Origin: a virus
DNA length: 22,595 nt
Reading direction: 5' to 3' (one strand)
IMG/VR virus record: IMGVR_UViG_3300017779_000175
Coordinates: 1 to 22,595 of that record
The position numbers and the translations under genes were made by a program. Position 1 is the first letter of the stretch, and each line of letters starts with the position of its first letter. The notes below the pieces were generated by a model. The model was not told the DNA's origin. It saw nothing but the letters and a program-made list of their open reading frames with translations, and searched no databases. Positions 3,292 through 20,398 of the stretch are shown here, piece after piece.

Positions 3292-3879
3292 TTAAAAGTC
3301 TGTAAATCCTACTATAGATTCGTCTGCTTCAGGTATGTTGTGTAAGTATTTTCCTCTTTTAATCATTTCTTCAGGGTAACCTTCATCCATTAATTCGTGG
3401 TATACTTCTACTTCAGAAGACATAGTACAGGTTTTAGGGTTATTTCCCTCAATATATGAAATATGAACCCATGAAAAGGGTTGATCAGCATTAGTAAAAT
3501 CTTCTCTTTCAGGAAATTCCCAAATTAATTGATTCCACTCAGGTAAATTTTGAAAACACCAATTCCATAAAACAGATGAAGATTTACTTAAACTAAGTAA
3601 ATCTATAGCATATCCCTTAACATGTTGGCTAGTTTCAGTTCCCCCCATTAATTTGTTTAGTTCAGTAGATCTATAAGCAGATGTTATTTTAATATCTTCA
3701 ATACCAAAAGCTTCTACAATAGGTATTATACAGTTAGTATGCAATAAATTTAAATTATTCCATATAAAATCTTCGGTAAGAGTAGGATCTAAATATTCAT
3801 CTACTCCTGGATAGTTATTAATACCATTGTTATTTGCTAATTTGCTGTATATATTATGTATTTTTTTAAATTTTGCCAT
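3292..3879 (-). CDS. Peptidase M15-like D,D-/L,D-peptidase (cell-wall hydrolase)
   Basis: The product is 195 residues. The zinc-site motifs of family M15 are visible. SAYRSTELNKLMGG (about 67-80) is the substrate and structural block. SQHVKGYAIDL supplies the first His and the Asp in the H-x6-D arrangement. WVHIS at about residue 137-141 supplies the last His. M15 phage enzymes cut peptide cross-links in Gram-negative peptidoglycan. The gene sits inside the baseplate cluster, 1 bp from the hub gene and 11 bp from the spike-like gene, so it is more likely a tail-tip lysin acting at DNA entry than the lysis endolysin. No holin is adjacent and there is no signal peptide. An endolysin role remains possible. 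Confidence 0.8.
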   Translation of the reverse strand: MAKFKKIHNIYSKLANNNGINNYPGVDEYLDPTLTEDFIWNNLNLLHTNCIIPIVEAFGIEDIKITSAYRSTELNKLMGGTETSQHVKGYAIDLLSLSKSSSVLWNWCFQNLPEWNQLIWEFPEREDFTNADQPFSWVHISYIEGNNPKTCTMSSEVEVYHELMDEGYPEEMIKRGKYLHNIPEADESIVGFTDF

Positions 3880-10978: not shown

Positions 10979-13900
10979 TTATTGTTTTATGATTCTATTA
11001 TTTATTATCTTATTATCATGTGTTATATTTAGATTATAAACTCCACTTGATAATGATGTCATGTCTATTTGTTTTGTTTTTGTTTTGGAAATAACTAAAT
11101 TTCCTATCATATCATATATCTTTATATCAACTTCTTGTGTACTATTTAATATGTCTGTTACTGGATTAGGATATATTAGTAATTCTCTACTCATTTCTTC
11201 TAAATCAATAGGCCATCCTAAATCACAATAATTATATAATTCTACACAATATGAATTCCAACTACCTGTACAACATTCTGTATCAATGGATATTACCCAT
11301 TCAAAACAATCGTTAGGTAACCAATAAGGGACTCCAGGCCCACCACTACATTCTGCATCATACTCACAACTTCCATCATCTGTGTTAACATTTCCATCAT
11401 AATTATAAGCATTAACATCAGTACATCCTATTAATATATCAATACATGTTCCATTATCTGTATTAGCTAATTCATCATAGTTAAATGCTTCTGAATCTGT
11501 ACATCCATAAACTACTTCAATACAGCTAAAGTCTTCTGTATTTGCGTCTGAATTATAATTAAATGCTGTTGAATCTGTACACCCATAAACAACTTCTATA
11601 CATGAACCATTATCTGTGTTTGCTAACTCATTATAATTAAATGCTGTAGAATCCGTACAACCATATACATAATCTATACACGAAAAATTATCTACATTAG
11701 CTAATTCGTTATAATTTAAAGCTGTTGAATCTGTACAACCTTCTACTATTTCAATACATGTTCCATTATCTGTGTTTGCTAATTCGTTATAATTTAATGC
11801 TGTCGAATCTGTACAACCATAAATGTAATCTATGCATGAAAAATTATCAACATTTGCGTTTTCATTATAATTTATAGCAGATGCATCTGTACATCCATAC
11901 ACAATTTCTATACATGAATCATTATCTACATTAGCATCTTCATCATAATTAAGAGCATCTGGGTCTGTACAACCATAAACTGTTAATATGCAACTACCAT
12001 CATCTACGTTAGCAAAAGTATCATAATTAAATGCAAATATATTTGTACAACCTTCTACTATAGGGATACATGAATCATTATCTGTGTTAGCTGTTGAATC
12101 ATAGTTAAATGCAGTTGGATCAGTACAACCATATATAGGTAATATACAACTACCATCATCTATGTTAGCTTCAGAGTTAAAATTAAATGCTGAAGAATCA
12201 GTACATCCGGGATATAAACATGAACCATTATCTACGTTTGCACCTTCATTATAATTAGTTGCTTCAGAATCTGTACATCCAAAATATAAACATGAATTAT
12301 CACTTACATTTGCATCTTCATTATAATTCCAAGCTACTGAATCCATACATCCAAAAACTATTCCTTCACACGAACCATCGTCAAAGTTTGCGTTTTCATC
12401 ATAATTAAATGCTATTTCTTGAGTACATCCAGGTATAACTTCAATACAAGAACCATCATCTGTATTTGCTTCTTCATTATAATTTAAAGCAGTTGAATCT
12501 AAACACCCTTCTACTGTTGGGATACATAAAGTACCACAAAAAGGCATTGCTTGATACACATTATAAAACGGAGGGCTAAACGATTGTAGTGCTCCTTGAC
12601 CATTATCTGCAAATGGGTTCCATCCTTCATATAATAATACGTTACCGTTTGCGTTTGTTAATTTAAAGGAGTTATGTAAAGTTTGAAATTCTACTTCTTC
12701 TGGTGGTGTTTGTGCACCTCCTACTTCAAAGTAATATATTTTAACAGGTTTATCTGTTTCTAACCATATAGGAAATGTTTGTTCATACTGTCCTGGTCCC
12801 ATTGTAAATGACCATTGGTTATCTCCCTGAACAACTCCTAAGAATGAATTACCCCATCCATCAGCACCAGCGTCTCCTATCCATAGTTCATAGTTACAGT
12901 TAGGATATATTTCCATTTGTGTAGCTAATGAATCATAATTAAATGCTATAGGATCAATACACCCTAATACATGCTCTGTAAGGCATGAGTCATCATCTGT
13001 ATTTGCTAAGGGGTTAAATTCTTGGTAATTAAAATCTGTACATCCTAATATTTCTTCTACATTACCACATATGGTTGTTTGTTGCCAAGTTGAATAAGCT
13101 ACATTTCCAAAACCAACTCCTACTGTATCTTGTGCTGCATTTACCCAAGTATTAGAGGATAATGAAGTAATTACTTCTCCATCACATCCTTTTATTACAA
13201 CATCACCATCTATTGTTCCTCCTGAAGTAGAACCAGCTAAACCATCACCAAAAGTATCTGATATAATAAATTCAAATCCACCTTCCATTGCACAAACATT
13301 ATAAGTGTAAGTCTGTCCAACATCTTGATAAGTATATGTTCCGTCTGGAATTTCTGTACTACCATCACCACTAACAAATGACCAACCTGTTTCACCTGGC
13401 CAATTATCTAAAGTTACTTCTATCACTAATGGTACATATCCTACATCACAAGCTTGACCTCCACAAGAACCATCATCTACTGTTGCCCATGGATTGTAAT
13501 TAGGAGCATTTTCATCTGTACATCCTTGTGTACATGGGTATGGAGTAAAGAGTATTGTATCTGATGCTAGGCTATCTGCTGTAAATAATTGGGCATAGAA
13601 TTCATCTTCCCAATTAGGTGGCATTGTACCATTACCAGCATAAACCCCCCATATACCATTATCTATATCTGTGTCAAAATTATAAGAATTAGTTCCATTA
13701 CTACCATAAGTTATTTGAGTTATATTACAGTTAGGGTTATCTGAAACATCCCAGTTGTAATAAAGAATTGCTAAACCACCATCACATGTTTGTTCTACAT
13801 AAATATTATCGATTGATTCACAAGGAGGGTATTCACATAACATTGAATCGTTTATATCCGCATCAGGATTATAATTGACTGCACCTTCATCCATACAATC

Positions 13901-14287
13901 AATAACTGGTGGTTCTGGTGGAGCACAAGGTGCTATTGTTAAAGATTCAATTAAACCTATACCATAGTTTCCTTGGGCAAAAAATAAAGTATCCTGACAA
14001 GCATTTGACACTAAACAATAACCATCATTAGGCCATGATAAACCATCCCCATAAGCATCTAATAATTCAAATGTATAATCTCCTGATTCTAAAGAATCGA
14101 TTACAATAAAGGCATTTGGTTGTCCATTATCATAAGGACCACCTGATTCAATAACACCATAACTATTTGATAAATTCCATGTTACTTCATCTGCATAACC
14201 ATCAAATTGAAATTCAACATTTACCCAAGTATTTTGGGTTAACAACAACATTGGCAATAATGCCAATAAAAATAATAACTTTTTCAT
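10979..14287 (-). CDS. Secreted Cys-rich repeat protein with type IX secretion sorting domain
   Basis: The product is 1102 residues. A signal peptide (MKKLLFLLALLPMLLLTQN) is followed by jelly-roll-like modules carrying GDG motifs: LDAYGDGLSW at about 88 and ISDTFGDGLAGS at about 345. There are 19 copies of a ~28-residue unit, GCTDsxAxNYNxxANxDdGSC, fifteen of them in a near-continuous run. A Cys-rich block (CFEWVISIDTECCTG) precedes a C-terminal ~70-residue domain, LLIYPNPVTDILN...IYDMIGNLV...LSSGVYNLNI, which is the Por-secretion (T9SS type A) sorting tail. In Bacteroidetes, such tails route proteins through the outer membrane to the cell surface. The repeat resembles units in marine flavobacterial adhesin-like proteins. 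It lies 10 bp downstream of a thioredoxin-like gene. It could be a host-surface modifier expressed during infection or a virion fibre using a host-derived sequence. The signal peptide favours the former. Confidence 0.85.
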   Translation of the reverse strand: MKKLLFLLALLPMLLLTQNTWVNVEFQFDGYADEVTWNLSNSYGVIESGGPYDNGQPNAFIVIDSLESGDYTFELLDAYGDGLSWPNDGYCLVSNACQDTLFFAQGNYGIGLIESLTIAPCAPPEPPVIDCMDEGAVNYNPDADINDSMLCEYPPCESIDNIYVEQTCDGGLAILYYNWDVSDNPNCNITQITYGSNGTNSYNFDTDIDNGIWGVYAGNGTMPPNWEDEFYAQLFTADSLASDTILFTPYPCTQGCTDENAPNYNPWATVDDGSCGGQACDVGYVPLVIEVTLDNWPGETGWSFVSGDGSTEIPDGTYTYQDVGQTYTYNVCAMEGGFEFIISDTFGDGLAGSTSGGTIDGDVVIKGCDGEVITSLSSNTWVNAAQDTVGVGFGNVAYSTWQQTTICGNVEEILGCTDFNYQEFNPLANTDDDSCLTEHVLGCIDPIAFNYDSLATQMEIYPNCNYELWIGDAGADGWGNSFLGVVQGDNQWSFTMGPGQYEQTFPIWLETDKPVKIYYFEVGGAQTPPEEVEFQTLHNSFKLTNANGNVLLYEGWNPFADNGQGALQSFSPPFYNVYQAMPFCGTLCIPTVEGCLDSTALNYNEEANTDDGSCIEVIPGCTQEIAFNYDENANFDDGSCEGIVFGCMDSVAWNYNEDANVSDNSCLYFGCTDSEATNYNEGANVDNGSCLYPGCTDSSAFNFNSEANIDDGSCILPIYGCTDPTAFNYDSTANTDNDSCIPIVEGCTNIFAFNYDTFANVDDGSCILTVYGCTDPDALNYDEDANVDNDSCIEIVYGCTDASAINYNENANVDNFSCIDYIYGCTDSTALNYNELANTDNGTCIEIVEGCTDSTALNYNELANVDNFSCIDYVYGCTDSTAFNYNELANTDNGSCIEVVYGCTDSTAFNYNSDANTEDFSCIEVVYGCTDSEAFNYDELANTDNGTCIDILIGCTDVNAYNYDGNVNTDDGSCEYDAECSGGPGVPYWLPNDCFEWVISIDTECCTGSWNSYCVELYNYCDLGWPIDLEEMSRELLIYPNPVTDILNSTQEVDIKIYDMIGNLVISKTKTKQIDMTSLSSGVYNLNITHDNKIINNRIIKQ
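11364..12508 (-). repeat. In-frame tandem repeat array (15 units of GCTD...NYN...DGSC)
   Basis: This array encodes repeats 5-19 of the 1102-residue protein. Each unit is about 75-85 bp and encodes two cysteines and an Asp/Asn-rich loop, which suggests a disulphide-closed, possibly calcium-binding module. Neighbouring units around 11550-11850 are most alike at DNA level (GCTDSTALNYNELAN and GCTDSTAFNYNELAN recur), so the array has probably expanded recently by recombination in that stretch. Confidence 0.85.
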
Positions 14288-14297
14288 ACGCTTTTTT

Positions 14298-14633
14298 TTA
14301 AAATTGATCCATTAAGACTTCATCTATTACTTCTTGTACCTCATTTTTCGTTGCTTTCATAGCAAACGAAATGTCAGCTTGAAATCTCTTTACTTCTTTT
14401 CCATTAAATACTATAATAGTAGGTACAACTACTATTTTCCATTCTGCTTGAGCAGCTGCGTCAGCTGCTATATCAATGTACTGAATTTCGCAGTCTTTTA
14501 ACTTTCCTACCCATTCTACATTATTTGCTGAATTCCATCCAGCATTAAATTGTACTACACATAACTCTGATTCACATGGTGATTGAGTATATACTAAAAG
14601 GGGTAATAATAATAAAAATAATAATTTTTTCAT
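14298..14633 (-). CDS. Secreted thioredoxin-fold protein lacking the CxxC motif
   Basis: The product is 111 residues. A signal peptide (MKKLLFLLLLPLLVYTQS) is followed by a short thioredoxin-like domain. The strand VVQFNAGWN at 26-34 aligns with the canonical F-x-A-x-W-C of thioredoxin, but the active-site C-x-x-C is replaced by N-S-A-N (34-37). The cis-proline strand VVVPTIIVFNGKEVKRF at 68-84 is intact, with Pro71. Three cysteines (20, 25, 48) lie elsewhere and could form a structural disulphide. A redox function by the usual mechanism is therefore unlikely; a chaperone or binding role is more plausible. It lies between a membrane protein gene and the Cys-rich T9SS-type gene, both very close by, so a role in folding or export of that protein is attractive but unproven. 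Confidence 0.75.
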   Translation of the reverse strand: MKKLLFLLLLPLLVYTQSPCESELCVVQFNAGWNSANNVEWVGKLKDCEIQYIDIAADAAAQAEWKIVVVPTIIVFNGKEVKRFQADISFAMKATKNEVQEVIDEVLMDQF

Positions 14634-14927: not shown

Positions 14928-15989
14928 TTAAAATATTTTGTAGTTAAGTCCAAGTGAGAAATTATGCCATTCTCTATTCCAATATTTGTTATATTTACCC
15001 TCAATAAAGGTACCTAAATTTTTATTAAACCAATAACCAAAAATCAAACCGCCAGAATAATCTAACCATTGACCTCCATTAAAATTATGATATGAGTATT
15101 CATTTCCATCATCATAATGATAAGGCATTAAATTGCCCCATGAATGTAACCAAAACTTTTTATCGTAATGATAAAAGTCAAAACCAATAATTACGGAATG
15201 CTGTAATGTATTGCTTAATTTATTTCTTTCTGATTCAACAAATCCATCTAATACTTGTGGTATAACAACCTCTTTCCATACTTCATTAGATGTTGCAACT
15301 ATATTTCCATTTGGATCTGTATATGTACTAGTAAAAGGATCTATGTTATATCCTTCTTGTAATGCTAAATATGTGTAGTGTAAATTTCCGTTTTCTAATA
15401 CCCAATTTGCTAATGGGTCAAACCCATAAGGTTCAGCAAATCTTTGTACTATTCCTATATTAAGTGATAATTTTTTGCTTATTTTTTGTCTGTATCTTTG
15501 TGTTGATTCGAAATATTCAATATCTGCAAATCCATTTGTATAGTATTCTACTTTAATTAACCATTTATCTGCAACATATCTTAAAAAATGATGTTGATCA
15601 AAATATGATAAACCTTGTTGTCTTTTATATTCACCTTCAAATAAAAATTCAAAACCAGTTACTTTACCCATTGTTGCTGCATCAGAAAATGAATTTTCGT
15701 TTCCTTTTTTAAATGCTTCTTTTGGTAAATAACCAAACCTTGCAATTTTTCTTACACCAAATTTTATTGAATAATCAAAAGGCGTTTCTATAATGTCTTG
15801 GTTTAATGTACCTGTTGTAATAGAATATATGTCATCATCAGATATTGATGTTCCCCCATTAACGGCACCATAAAATGTTGAAAATTTAAAGATTTTTTTA
15901 ACTTCTTTTTTTAGGTTAAATTTTTTTTCCTCTGTTTGACCTAACATAAGAAGAGGAAATGCCAACAGCATAACTAATAGATATCTCAT
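14928..15989 (-). CDS. Outer-membrane beta-barrel-like protein
   Basis: The product is about 353 residues. An in-frame GTG sits one codon upstream of the ATG at 15989; I use the ATG. The signal peptide is MRYLLVMLLAFPLLMLGQ. The mature part alternates polar and aromatic residues in strand-length pieces (KWLIKVEYYTNGFADIEYF, WLDYSGGLIFGYWF, LGTFIEGKYNKYW). It ends FSLGLNYKIF, with the terminal Phe typical of barrels inserted by the BAM machinery. I recognise no named porin family. A candidate promoter motif lies 16 bp upstream, immediately after the tmRNA terminator, so this gene appears to head the envelope cassette. Outer-membrane proteins on phages can block superinfection or change permeability, but the sequence does not say which. 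Confidence 0.7.
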   Translation of the reverse strand: MRYLLVMLLAFPLLMLGQTEEKKFNLKKEVKKIFKFSTFYGAVNGGTSISDDDIYSITTGTLNQDIIETPFDYSIKFGVRKIARFGYLPKEAFKKGNENSFSDAATMGKVTGFEFLFEGEYKRQQGLSYFDQHHFLRYVADKWLIKVEYYTNGFADIEYFESTQRYRQKISKKLSLNIGIVQRFAEPYGFDPLANWVLENGNLHYTYLALQEGYNIDPFTSTYTDPNGNIVATSNEVWKEVVIPQVLDGFVESERNKLSNTLQHSVIIGFDFYHYDKKFWLHSWGNLMPYHYDDGNEYSYHNFNGGQWLDYSGGLIFGYWFNKNLGTFIEGKYNKYWNREWHNFSLGLNYKIF

Positions 15990-16004
15990 CACAATGGGTT
16001 TTTG

Positions 16005-16014
16005 TAATAAATAT
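16005..16014 (-). promoter_or_regulatory. Candidate late promoter motif (ATATTTATTA)
   Basis: The minus strand reads TTCTATATTTATTACAAA, 16 bp before the ATG at 15989 and directly after the tmRNA terminator. It is an exact copy of the decamer found at 5221 and 10950. A promoter is needed here because the terminator at 16032-16053 should stop read-through from the genes above. Confidence 0.4.
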
Positions 16015-16027
16015 AGAAAAGAAAATA

Positions 16028-16053
16028 AAAAAAGCAGCCCTTTCGGGCTGCTT
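16028..16053 (-). terminator. Intrinsic terminator after tmRNA
   Basis: On the minus strand, AAGCAGCCC-GAAA-GGGCTGCTT forms a 9-bp stem with a stable GAAA tetraloop (16032-16053). A run of T follows, interrupted by one A. This is a textbook rho-independent terminator. It ends the permuted tmRNA and separates it from the envelope cassette. Confidence 0.9.
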
Positions 16054-16351
16054 CTAGGATTTTAACGACATGATCCTTGTTTGCCGTGTGGTGTGGGTGC
16101 CTAACTAGGCAGCCATTGCAAATACTGACTCTTCAGTAGCTACAGTCTCTTTTGCAAGAGATCGAATAGCAAATAATGAAGCGAAAACATTTGTTATCAC
16201 CGTGTTAACCTGTTTGCCGGTTACTGCGTTGGTCTTCCCTATACCCTTACTTGCTGTCAAAGCCGGTCATCCCCCTATCGTGTATTTTTAGTGGAGATGC
16301 CGGGAATCGAACCCGGGTCCAAACAAGCAGCTAATATAAGTACTAGCGACC
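16054..16351 (-). ncRNA. ssrA: Circularly permuted (two-piece) tmRNA precursor
   Basis: Read on the minus strand, the 3' half of a tRNA-like domain comes first. The T-arm is CCGGG-TTCGATT-CCCGG, then the acceptor strand CATCTCC, discriminator A and CTA (16289-16316). After about 14 bases comes the 5' half, GGGGATGACCGGCTTTGACAG, from 16274 downward. The halves pair in a 7-bp acceptor stem, GGGGAUG with CAUCUCC, including the G3-U70 wobble and A73 used by alanyl-tRNA synthetase. A P2-like helix pairs GGTATAGG (16238-16245) with CTTATATT (16333-16340), extended by GACC/GGTC. A hairpin TAACC/GGTTA precedes the tag frame, and a stop codon sits in a TGCCT-AGTT-AGGCA hairpin like P5. This order is that of alpha-proteobacterial and cyanobacterial permuted tmRNAs. 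CCA is not encoded. The exact mature ends are uncertain. Confidence 0.88.
16105..16191 (-). other. tmRNA proteolysis-tag reading frame
   Basis: The frame ends ...SVFAMAA-stop. The last four residues resemble the ALAA/VAA C-termini that ClpXP-type proteases recognise. Going back from the stop it reads NVFASLFAIRSLAKETVATE then ESVFAMAA, 28 codons from the AAT at 16189-16191. The exact resume codon cannot be fixed: the frame is open further upstream (VIT), and the GCT at 16180-16182 is another choice, giving a tag of 25 codons. The stop codon TAG lies inside the P5-like hairpin at 16098-16111, as in other tmRNAs. The tag is longer than the common 8-15 residue bacterial tags. Confidence 0.7.
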
Positions 16352-16388
16352 ATTTATACCTATAAAAAATATGTTTATTCGAACCAAG

Positions 16389-19519: not shown

Positions 19520-20398
19520 TTAAAGACAGCTGAGATATCTTTCGCCTCTATCACAAAGAATAGTGATAGCGTTAGTTTTATTATTATCACGTAACCATTC
19601 AAATGATGCTTTCACATTAGCCCCCGCACTTATACCAACAAATAATCCATATTTACTGGCCATATATTTAGCTATTGTTTTTGCGCATTTTGTTTTTACA
19701 GTTTTTATTTCGTCTACGAAATCCAAGTCCACTAGAAATTTGCTTCCATCCCCTATTCCTTGTATCCCATGAAGCCCTGGTTGTTCTCCTGACATGACTG
19801 CACTCTCCGCCGGCTCTACGGCAACGATCTTCATATTCTTCCAGTAGTGTTTTAACTTTTGCCCGCATCCCATTAAAGTTCCTCCTGTGCCTGTACCTAA
19901 AATAAAGGCGTCTGGCGCTGTAGTATTTTTCCATTGTTTAAATATTTCTTCTCCTGTATTATTAAAATGTACTTCTATATTCCATGGGTTATGGAATTGG
20001 TTGCAATTATACCATCCTTTAGCTTTACATAAATCATCTCTCATTTCGATAGCACCATCAAAATCACCTTCATCTACTTGTATTAATTCTGCACCGTAAA
20101 ATCTCATCATAGATTTTCTTTCCTCAGACATATTAGAAGGCATAATAATTTTCATTTTATAACCCCTTTCAGCAGCTAACATAGCAAATGCAATTCCTGT
20201 ATTACCTGAAGTTGCTTCACATAATGTGTCGCCTTTTTTAATTAACCCATAAGATTCTGCTAAATTTATTATGTATGTAGCCATTCTGTCTTTAACTGAA
20301 CCACTTGGGTTCATAAATTCGGCTTTTCCCCAAACTGTTAAATTACCTAATGTAATTGGGATTAGTGGTGTATTACCTACATTATCTGATAAGCGCAT
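19520..20398 (-). CDS. cysK: Cysteine synthase (O-acetylserine sulfhydrylase), PLP-dependent
   Basis: The product is 292 residues, slightly short for CysK/CysM (about 300-320). The fold type II PLP enzyme motifs are all present. Lys36 in NPSGSVKDRMA is the Schiff-base lysine. EATSGNTGIAF (61-71) is the substrate loop. GTGTGGTLMG (168-177) binds the PLP phosphate. VGISAGAN (254-261) supplies the Ser that contacts the pyridine nitrogen. The C-terminus DRGERYLSCL is complete. It makes cysteine from O-acetylserine and sulfide. As a phage-carried metabolic gene it may sustain cysteine supply during infection. Genes nearby encode a very Cys-rich secreted protein. It lies 13 bp downstream of a zinc-ribbon gene. 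The family also includes cystathionine beta-synthase; length and motifs favour cysteine synthase. Confidence 0.88.
   Translation of the reverse strand: MRLSDNVGNTPLIPITLGNLTVWGKAEFMNPSGSVKDRMATYIINLAESYGLIKKGDTLCEATSGNTGIAFAMLAAERGYKMKIIMPSNMSEERKSMMRFYGAELIQVDEGDFDGAIEMRDDLCKAKGWYNCNQFHNPWNIEVHFNNTGEEIFKQWKNTTAPDAFILGTGTGGTLMGCGQKLKHYWKNMKIVAVEPAESAVMSGEQPGLHGIQGIGDGSKFLVDLDFVDEIKTVKTKCAKTIAKYMASKYGLFVGISAGANVKASFEWLRDNNKTNAITILCDRGERYLSCL

Follow-up and report, generated by a model that had tools for sequence, protein, structure and literature searches.

The window analysed here is the whole stretch of 22,595 nucleotides from a virus (IMG/VR record IMGVR_UViG_3300017779_000175, positions 1 to 22,595), and it is a fragment. 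On its minus strand it carries a permuted (two-piece) tmRNA, whose parts are listed in Table 1 together with the neighbouring genes. In gene order, the element consists of the 3' strand of P2, the T-arm, CAUCUCC, A73, a 16-nt intervening segment, GGGGAUG, the D-loop, the 5' strand of P2, the tag, a pseudoknot and a terminator.

Table 1. Parts of the permuted tmRNA and neighbouring genes, in positions of the window.
Feature	Position	Strand	Evidence or remark
Acceptor piece (P2 3' strand, T-arm, acceptor 3' strand, A73; first in gene order)	16291..16351	-	RF04321 match starts at 16351
T-arm CCGGG-UUCGAUU-CCCGG	16300..16316	-	100% paired in 27 copies; compensatory changes at two pairs
Acceptor 3' strand CAUCUCC, bearing U70 of G3-U70; A73 is 16292	16293..16299	-	U-G pair invariant in 27/27
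Intervening segment, 16 nt; removal by RNase P and 3' processing expected	16275..16290	-	tRNA-Ala gene there in some relatives
Acceptor 5' strand GGGGAUG; expected 5' end of coding piece	16268..16274	-	RF04321 match; pairing in relatives
D-loop-like region ACCGGCUUUGACA	16255..16267	-	RF04321 alignment
P2 5' strand	16231..16254	-	Segments 84-99% paired; 9/16 pairs changed on both sides
Resume-codon hairpin AACC[GGCAAACA]GGUU	16207..16222	-	100% paired in 27 copies
Tag frame, GGC to stop UAG, GKQVNTVITNVFASLFAIRSLAKETVATEESVFAMAA, 37 aa	16105..16218	-	Exactly 37 codons open in homologues
Post-tag H-type pseudoknot	16056..16087	-	ACGGC 16083-16087 with GUCGU 16065-16069; AGGAU 16073-16077 with AUCCU 16056-16060
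Intrinsic terminator GCAGCCC-GAAA-GGGCUGC-U7	16024..16051	-	Sequence; arms co-vary in close relatives
Downstream neighbour, 354-aa protein with signal peptide	14928..15992	-	tmRNA directly upstream in relatives
1102-aa protein with T9SS C-terminal sorting domain	10979..14287	-	PF18962 Por_Secre_tail, 42.6 bits, cut-off 27

The 354-aa neighbour is probably an outer-membrane beta-barrel, judging from its sequence. Neither Pfam nor PHROGs has a family for it and it matches nothing in deposited phages, but 392 relatives were found in viral contigs, being widespread in marine ones. The 1102-aa T9SS protein contains many GCTD..A.NYN..AN.D..SC repeats. Beside it are encoded a 121-aa protein and a secreted, thioredoxin-like one (14298-14633), and the three recur as a cassette in relatives. 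Elsewhere in the window, positions 19520-20398 encode a cysteine synthase-like PLP enzyme (PF00291, 219 bits), which is likely to be an auxiliary metabolic gene.

The Rfam search of the window returned a sole RNA family above gathering score, RF04321 (tmRNA_permuted), matching at 16351-16105 (-) with 77.7 bits (gathering cut-off 47 bits; E=1.3e-13) and covering model positions 1-213 of 213. A permuted tmRNA* was called independently by ARAGORN at 15898-16383 (-), with a wrong tag; the tag reported by this program, AARKGCFFYFLF..., has been discarded because its start lies past the true stop, and tags of 36-37 residues are in general miscalled by it. No one-piece tmRNA (RF00023) reached the gathering threshold in the window, any overlapping match staying under 43.4 bits, and no one-piece order with better pairing was found. 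Related to this, none of the alpha, beta and cyanobacterial tmRNA models (RF01849, RF01850 and RF01851) scored above its cut-off: the best of them, beta_tmRNA, gave 43.4 bits of the 84 needed, the others being lower or unlisted, and the element is therefore no ordinary member of these three subfamilies. The 3' acceptor half stands ahead of the 5' half with the intervening segment between them, which is the order that defines permuted tmRNAs. The reversed tRNA-like halves described in the first-pass annotation are thus borne out by the covariance model and by ARAGORN. The element extends past the RF04321 match, through the pseudoknot and the terminator, to about 16024.

The tRNA-like domain and P2 have been compared in 27 distinct related viral copies. 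The acceptor stem, the T-arm, the three segments of P2 and the hairpin around the resume codon comprise 32 named pairs, in which 97.1% of the cells are paired. Over these pairs there are 72 double-sided changes, against 15.3 in shuffled controls and at most 13 in slid controls; the shuffled controls ignore relatedness, whereas the slid ones retain it and still score far below the observed value. The acceptor pairing GGGGAUG/CAUCUCC, which had been read from the letters together with G3-U70 and A73, is confirmed as a stem of 7 bp with an invariant wobble, and the P2-like helix also proposed is made up of three covarying segments, in which GCAAG (16250-16254), GUAUAGG (16238-16244) and GACC (16231-16234) pair with 16323-16327, 16334-16340 and 16348-16351, respectively. 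The encoded 3' end beyond A73 is CUA and not CCA.

Concerning the intervening segment, in two related loci ARAGORN finds a tRNA-Ala(UGC) within it (L335, 4462-4536; L323, 4786-4860), and a short-tag relative (L422, about 3650-3740) apparently has a tRNA-Ala there as well, as seen by sequence. By description, these nested genes can be likened to the permuted tmRNA of a nominally archaeal MAG, in which a tRNA-Ala lies inside the intervening sequence (PMC11915505). In two other relatives (L353, L354) the stop of a small upstream ORF is apparently located inside the first P2 strand of the tmRNA (GGU CGC UAG), which implies co-transcription and cleavage.

The resume codon is assigned to GGC, at 16218 (-), and it is enclosed in a hairpin in which C-G/U-A exchanges compensate each other at two pairs (AACU/AGUU, AAUC/GAUU), although few evolutionary events are involved. 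A similar helix around the resume codon, helix m, has been predicted with weak support in other tmRNAs (PMC1168896). Pseudoknot 1, which is typically located upstream of the tag and is not strictly defining of permuted tmRNAs, is absent from the tmRNA of the window. The distance from the 5' acceptor strand to the resume codon is 54-61 nt in the class to which this tmRNA belongs, and the gap between P2 and the resume hairpin is just 8 nt in the window, so there is no room for this pseudoknot. The same distance is 89-102 nt in the one-piece tmRNAs of Bacteroidota and at least 76 nt in the majority of the other permuted tmRNAs of phages, the shorter exceptions being L120 and L192 (61-62 nt), the L176 group (70 nt) and the GGC-type outliers L361, L290 and L188 (62-69 nt). 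A candidate second stem for pseudoknot 1, between the hairpin loop GGCAAA and a downstream UUUGC, was set aside, as by eye it fails in some copies. In E. coli tmRNA, tagging is kept when pseudoknot 1 is replaced by a hairpin or by a single strand (PMC4236655), and therefore its loss is compatible with function. The short-tag relatives have UAACU-GGC-GAA as their resume region, exactly as do the Bacteroidota tmRNAs encoding GENNYALAA.

The tag is 10 residues long in most relatives (GEQVELAMAA and similar) and 36-37 residues long in the window and about ten relatives. The 37-codon frame is kept exactly in seven homologues including the window; both alternative frames are interrupted by stops in six of these seven and one of the two in the seventh (L355), and dN is lower than dS in most pairs, the constraint being modest. 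Further long tags are encoded at two 37-codon loci and in one 36-codon lineage. It has been modelled that mRNA-like regions can reach up to 126 nt (PMC1168896), so the long tag is unusual yet has precedent. Tags of 31 residues (e.g. AKDIDTAANNIVAFSRVLTREFARTSELATA) are found in other permuted phage tmRNAs (L176, L182, L187, L105), and therefore long tags arose more than once. The tag of the window finishes in FAMAA plus stop, that is, in the hydrophobic end expected of a permuted tmRNA; an AMAA end is present in 11 of 39 tags of Bacteroidota tmRNAs. Among 59 short-tag relatives, codon 6 is always Met, Leu or Tyr, codon 7 is always Ala (GCG or GCA), and codons 9 and 10 likewise encode nothing but Ala, through three different triplets each; all three stop codons are used. 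Codons 6-10 vary synonymously or conservatively, a constraint at the level of translation, which argues for a resume point upstream of codon 6.

Downstream of the tag, the H-type pseudoknot has 91.4% of its cells paired, a covariation score of 0.425 (0.265 when shuffled) and 35 double-sided changes against 13.9 in the shuffled controls; all 5 pairs of the second stem are changed on both sides.

The architecture, the covariation, the conservation of the tag frame, the missing pseudoknot 1, the terminator and the recurrence in the virus family were established computationally. On this basis it is rather likely that the element is a working phage two-piece tmRNA, from a lineage without pseudoknot 1, used in Bacteroidota cells. 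The tmRNA would be transcribed with the surrounding genes and its transcription would end at the terminator (16051-16024). As in tmRNAs whose biology is established, the 16 nt of the intervening segment would then be cut out by RNase P and by enzymes that process the 3' end. This would yield an acceptor piece (about 16351-16292), to which CCA would be added, and a coding piece from 16274 to about 16054, both pieces being joined by the acceptor stem and P2. The acceptor piece would be charged by the host AlaRS via G3-U70 and, with host SmpB, the tmRNA would enter ribosomes stalled on broken mRNA. Translation would resume at GGC, the 37-residue tag ending in FAMAA would be added, and the tag would direct the product to the tail-specific proteases of the host, the ribosome being freed.

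Two observations go against the resume point at GGC: this codon lies within a hairpin of 4 bp, which has to be opened first, and the RF04321 alignment sets the resume point eight codons further on, at ACA, which is codon 9 in the window. Consequently, it could be proposed that the hairpin is a reduced pseudoknot 1 and that translation restarts about 12 nt past this hairpin, at codon 9, which reads GCA in most relatives; the tag would then have 29 residues here and would be Ala-Ala in the short-tag relatives. In its favour, the remaining 37-codon tags have Ala at codon 9, tags made up of just Ala-Ala are known elsewhere (PMC11915505), and the E. coli tmRNA whose pseudoknot 1 was cut to a hairpin still tags (PMC4236655). 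Nevertheless, this proposal would leave untranslated both codon 6 of the short tags, restricted to Met, Leu or Tyr, and codon 7, which changes only synonymously, and these codons form with the following ones an [MLY]AMAA end like that of host tags. Moreover, the AA at positions -4/-3 is fixed before GGC in 27 of 27 copies and is not fixed before codon 9. Resumption at codon 9 is consequently considered unlikely, and GGC is kept as the resume codon in what follows.

Relatives were searched for in viral contigs by means of the permuted-tmRNA pattern, the exact T-arm, the neighbouring proteins and the resume region. The class defined by the resume region has 75 distinct matches, one of which (L170) is apparently spurious and a few of which are truncated at a contig end or a gap. 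Homologues of this phage's gp6, HD-domain, p252, p317 or VWA proteins are encoded at most of the tmRNA loci that were inspected. In the closest relatives the tmRNA occupies the identical locus, with p113-p96 upstream and the 354-aa protein downstream, and a more distant syntenic relative (G025) has it in the equivalent place with the short tag GEQVELAMAA. This recurrence at a shared locus makes the tmRNA an established trait of the virus family. The suggestion that it had been acquired from another lineage does not hold in the form of a one-off capture, since dozens of related viral contigs contain it. When the tmRNA was compared at the nucleotide level with 50,697 deposited phages, only short matches around the T-arm came up, and therefore no deposited relative of this tmRNA class was detected. 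In the two deposited phages nearest to the gp6 protein, Flavobacterium phage immuto and Microcystis phage Mel-JY01, there is no permuted tmRNA, nor a one-piece tmRNA above the cut-off.

Regarding the host, the marine phage of the window very probably infects Bacteroidota, on the evidence of its sequence and of its relatives, as had been supposed in the first-pass annotation. The gp6 protein is 46% identical to both immuto and Mel-JY01, with equal scores, and the best deposited-phage relative of the HD protein is that of immuto. In the long-tag loci, 2 of 165 genes have a Shine-Dalgarno-like site ahead of them, which is at or below background; the fraction is 0.03 in immuto, 0.0 in a Bacteroidota prophage and 0.28 in Mel-JY01. 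Besides, the 354-aa protein has a relative in a Sphingobacteriales MAG. T9SS cargo, a close Bacteroidota isolate and a lack of Shine-Dalgarno sites, by which a phage of Bacteroidota was to be recognised, were all found. The T9SS domain that had been taken as a sign of the host is indeed present, but it does not settle the question alone; as lone proof it was rejected because some T9SS-bearing relatives have Shine-Dalgarno sites. Three short-tag relatives (L408, L409 and L413), two of them with T9SS domains, have such sites at about 40% of their genes, which suggests a host group different from that of the clade of the window, and therefore the carriers need not all share one host group.

It is also true that one-piece tmRNA is the usual form in Bacteroidota, since it scores above the cut-off in 141 of 148 genomes. 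A permuted tmRNA was found above the cut-off in just 1 of 395 sampled Bacteroidota genomes, within a prophage that encodes DNA polymerase, DnaB, primase and integrase, and this genome also has its own one-piece copy. In this prophage (L361, L405-L407; genome G262, C1 about 949000-1005000) the permuted tmRNA encodes the tag GKVIQMNNAPVRLAA, has a 7-bp hairpin around the resume codon and is adjoined by tRNA genes.

If the host were instead an organism with permuted tmRNA, such as a cyanobacterium, the T9SS gene would be foreign and the tmRNA would be host-like and unsurprising. The close gp6 relative in Mel-JY01 and the Shine-Dalgarno sites of some related short-tag phages could be understood in this way. 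On the other hand, the clade of the window differs from Mel-JY01 in having no Shine-Dalgarno signal, the resume region matches Bacteroidota ones exactly, the best-scoring permuted subfamily stays at roughly half of the bits it needs (43.4 of 84), and an unrelated Bacteroidota prophage also has a permuted tmRNA. Such a host is thus improbable, and a phage of Bacteroidota remains the preferred interpretation.

No SmpB was found in eight related contigs, three of them of 133-153 kb, so host SmpB would be needed. A phage tmRNA depending on the SmpB of its host could also be imagined as a decoy that binds this protein and blocks host trans-translation without tagging, as has been suggested for mycobacteriophage DS6A, whose tmRNA is TLD-only (PMC4131195, PMC11915505). 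A decoy, however, needs neither a tag frame with a stop nor a post-tag pseudoknot, and here the frame is conserved and the pseudoknot covaries, which makes this role still less probable than a host outside Bacteroidota. That the tmRNA is a decaying remnant or a passenger without function is hardly credible: its distribution is patchy (above the cut-off in 7 of 30 examined relatives, several of these records being fragments), but compensatory changes are present in every helix and the frame and the terminator are intact across many viruses.

Two-piece tmRNA is established in Alphaproteobacteria, Cyanobacteria, some Beta- and Gammaproteobacteria and marine phages such as Melnitz (PMC9004378). 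The family RF04321, published in 2025, merges the alpha, beta and cyanobacterial forms (PMC11915505). The tmRNA of the window shares with the members of this family the permuted order, the intervening segment, the tRNA-like domain with G3-U70, the split P2 and the Ala-Ala tag end, and differs from them in the lack of pseudoknot 1, in the Gly resume codon located in a covarying hairpin and in the tag of 36-37 residues; it also falls clearly under the thresholds of the three subfamilies. Like Methylophilales phage Melnitz and the pelagimyophages, this is a marine phage with a two-piece tmRNA; however, the tmRNAs of those phages have been placed with alphaproteobacterial ones and their hosts have permuted tmRNA (PMC9004378), whereas the hosts here are probably Bacteroidota with the one-piece form. 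The new distribution suggested at first is supported as far as the probable phylum of the host is concerned, and does not stand for marine phages, in which permuted tmRNAs were already documented. With the one-piece tmRNA of Bacteroidota (RF00023; tags such as GENNYALAA and ANDYSYAMAA), the element has in common the UAACU-GGC-GAA of its short-tag relatives and the Y/F-A-M-A-A tag end, and it differs in gene order, number of pieces and absence of pseudoknot 1. No description of permuted tmRNA in Bacteroidota phages was found in the literature searched, whose coverage is incomplete and does not include supplementary tables. The pseudoknot 1-deleted derivatives of E. coli tmRNA (cited in PMC4236655) tag without this pseudoknot too, but they are laboratory constructs, whereas the window represents a natural lineage.

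From these sequence comparisons, it may be proposed, with about equal chances of being right or wrong, that there is a fourth, virus-borne lineage of two-piece tmRNA, belonging to T4-like phages of Bacteroidota and perhaps of related bacteria with one-piece tmRNA. In this lineage pseudoknot 1 would have been naturally lost, translation would resume within a covarying hairpin in a host-like resume region, and the tag would have grown from 10 to 36-37 residues in a clade without Shine-Dalgarno sites. If this is true, two-piece tmRNA is now present in viruses infecting a phylum whose own tmRNA is one-piece, and therefore the phage tmRNA would have to be processed by host enzymes that otherwise encounter no permuted gene. 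The missing pseudoknot 1 would be the natural counterpart of the laboratory deletions. Finally, proteins bearing a tag of 36-37 residues may not simply be degraded but meet another fate, and the long conserved frame raises the question of what advantage the phage draws from adding 37 residues to proteins of its host or of its own.
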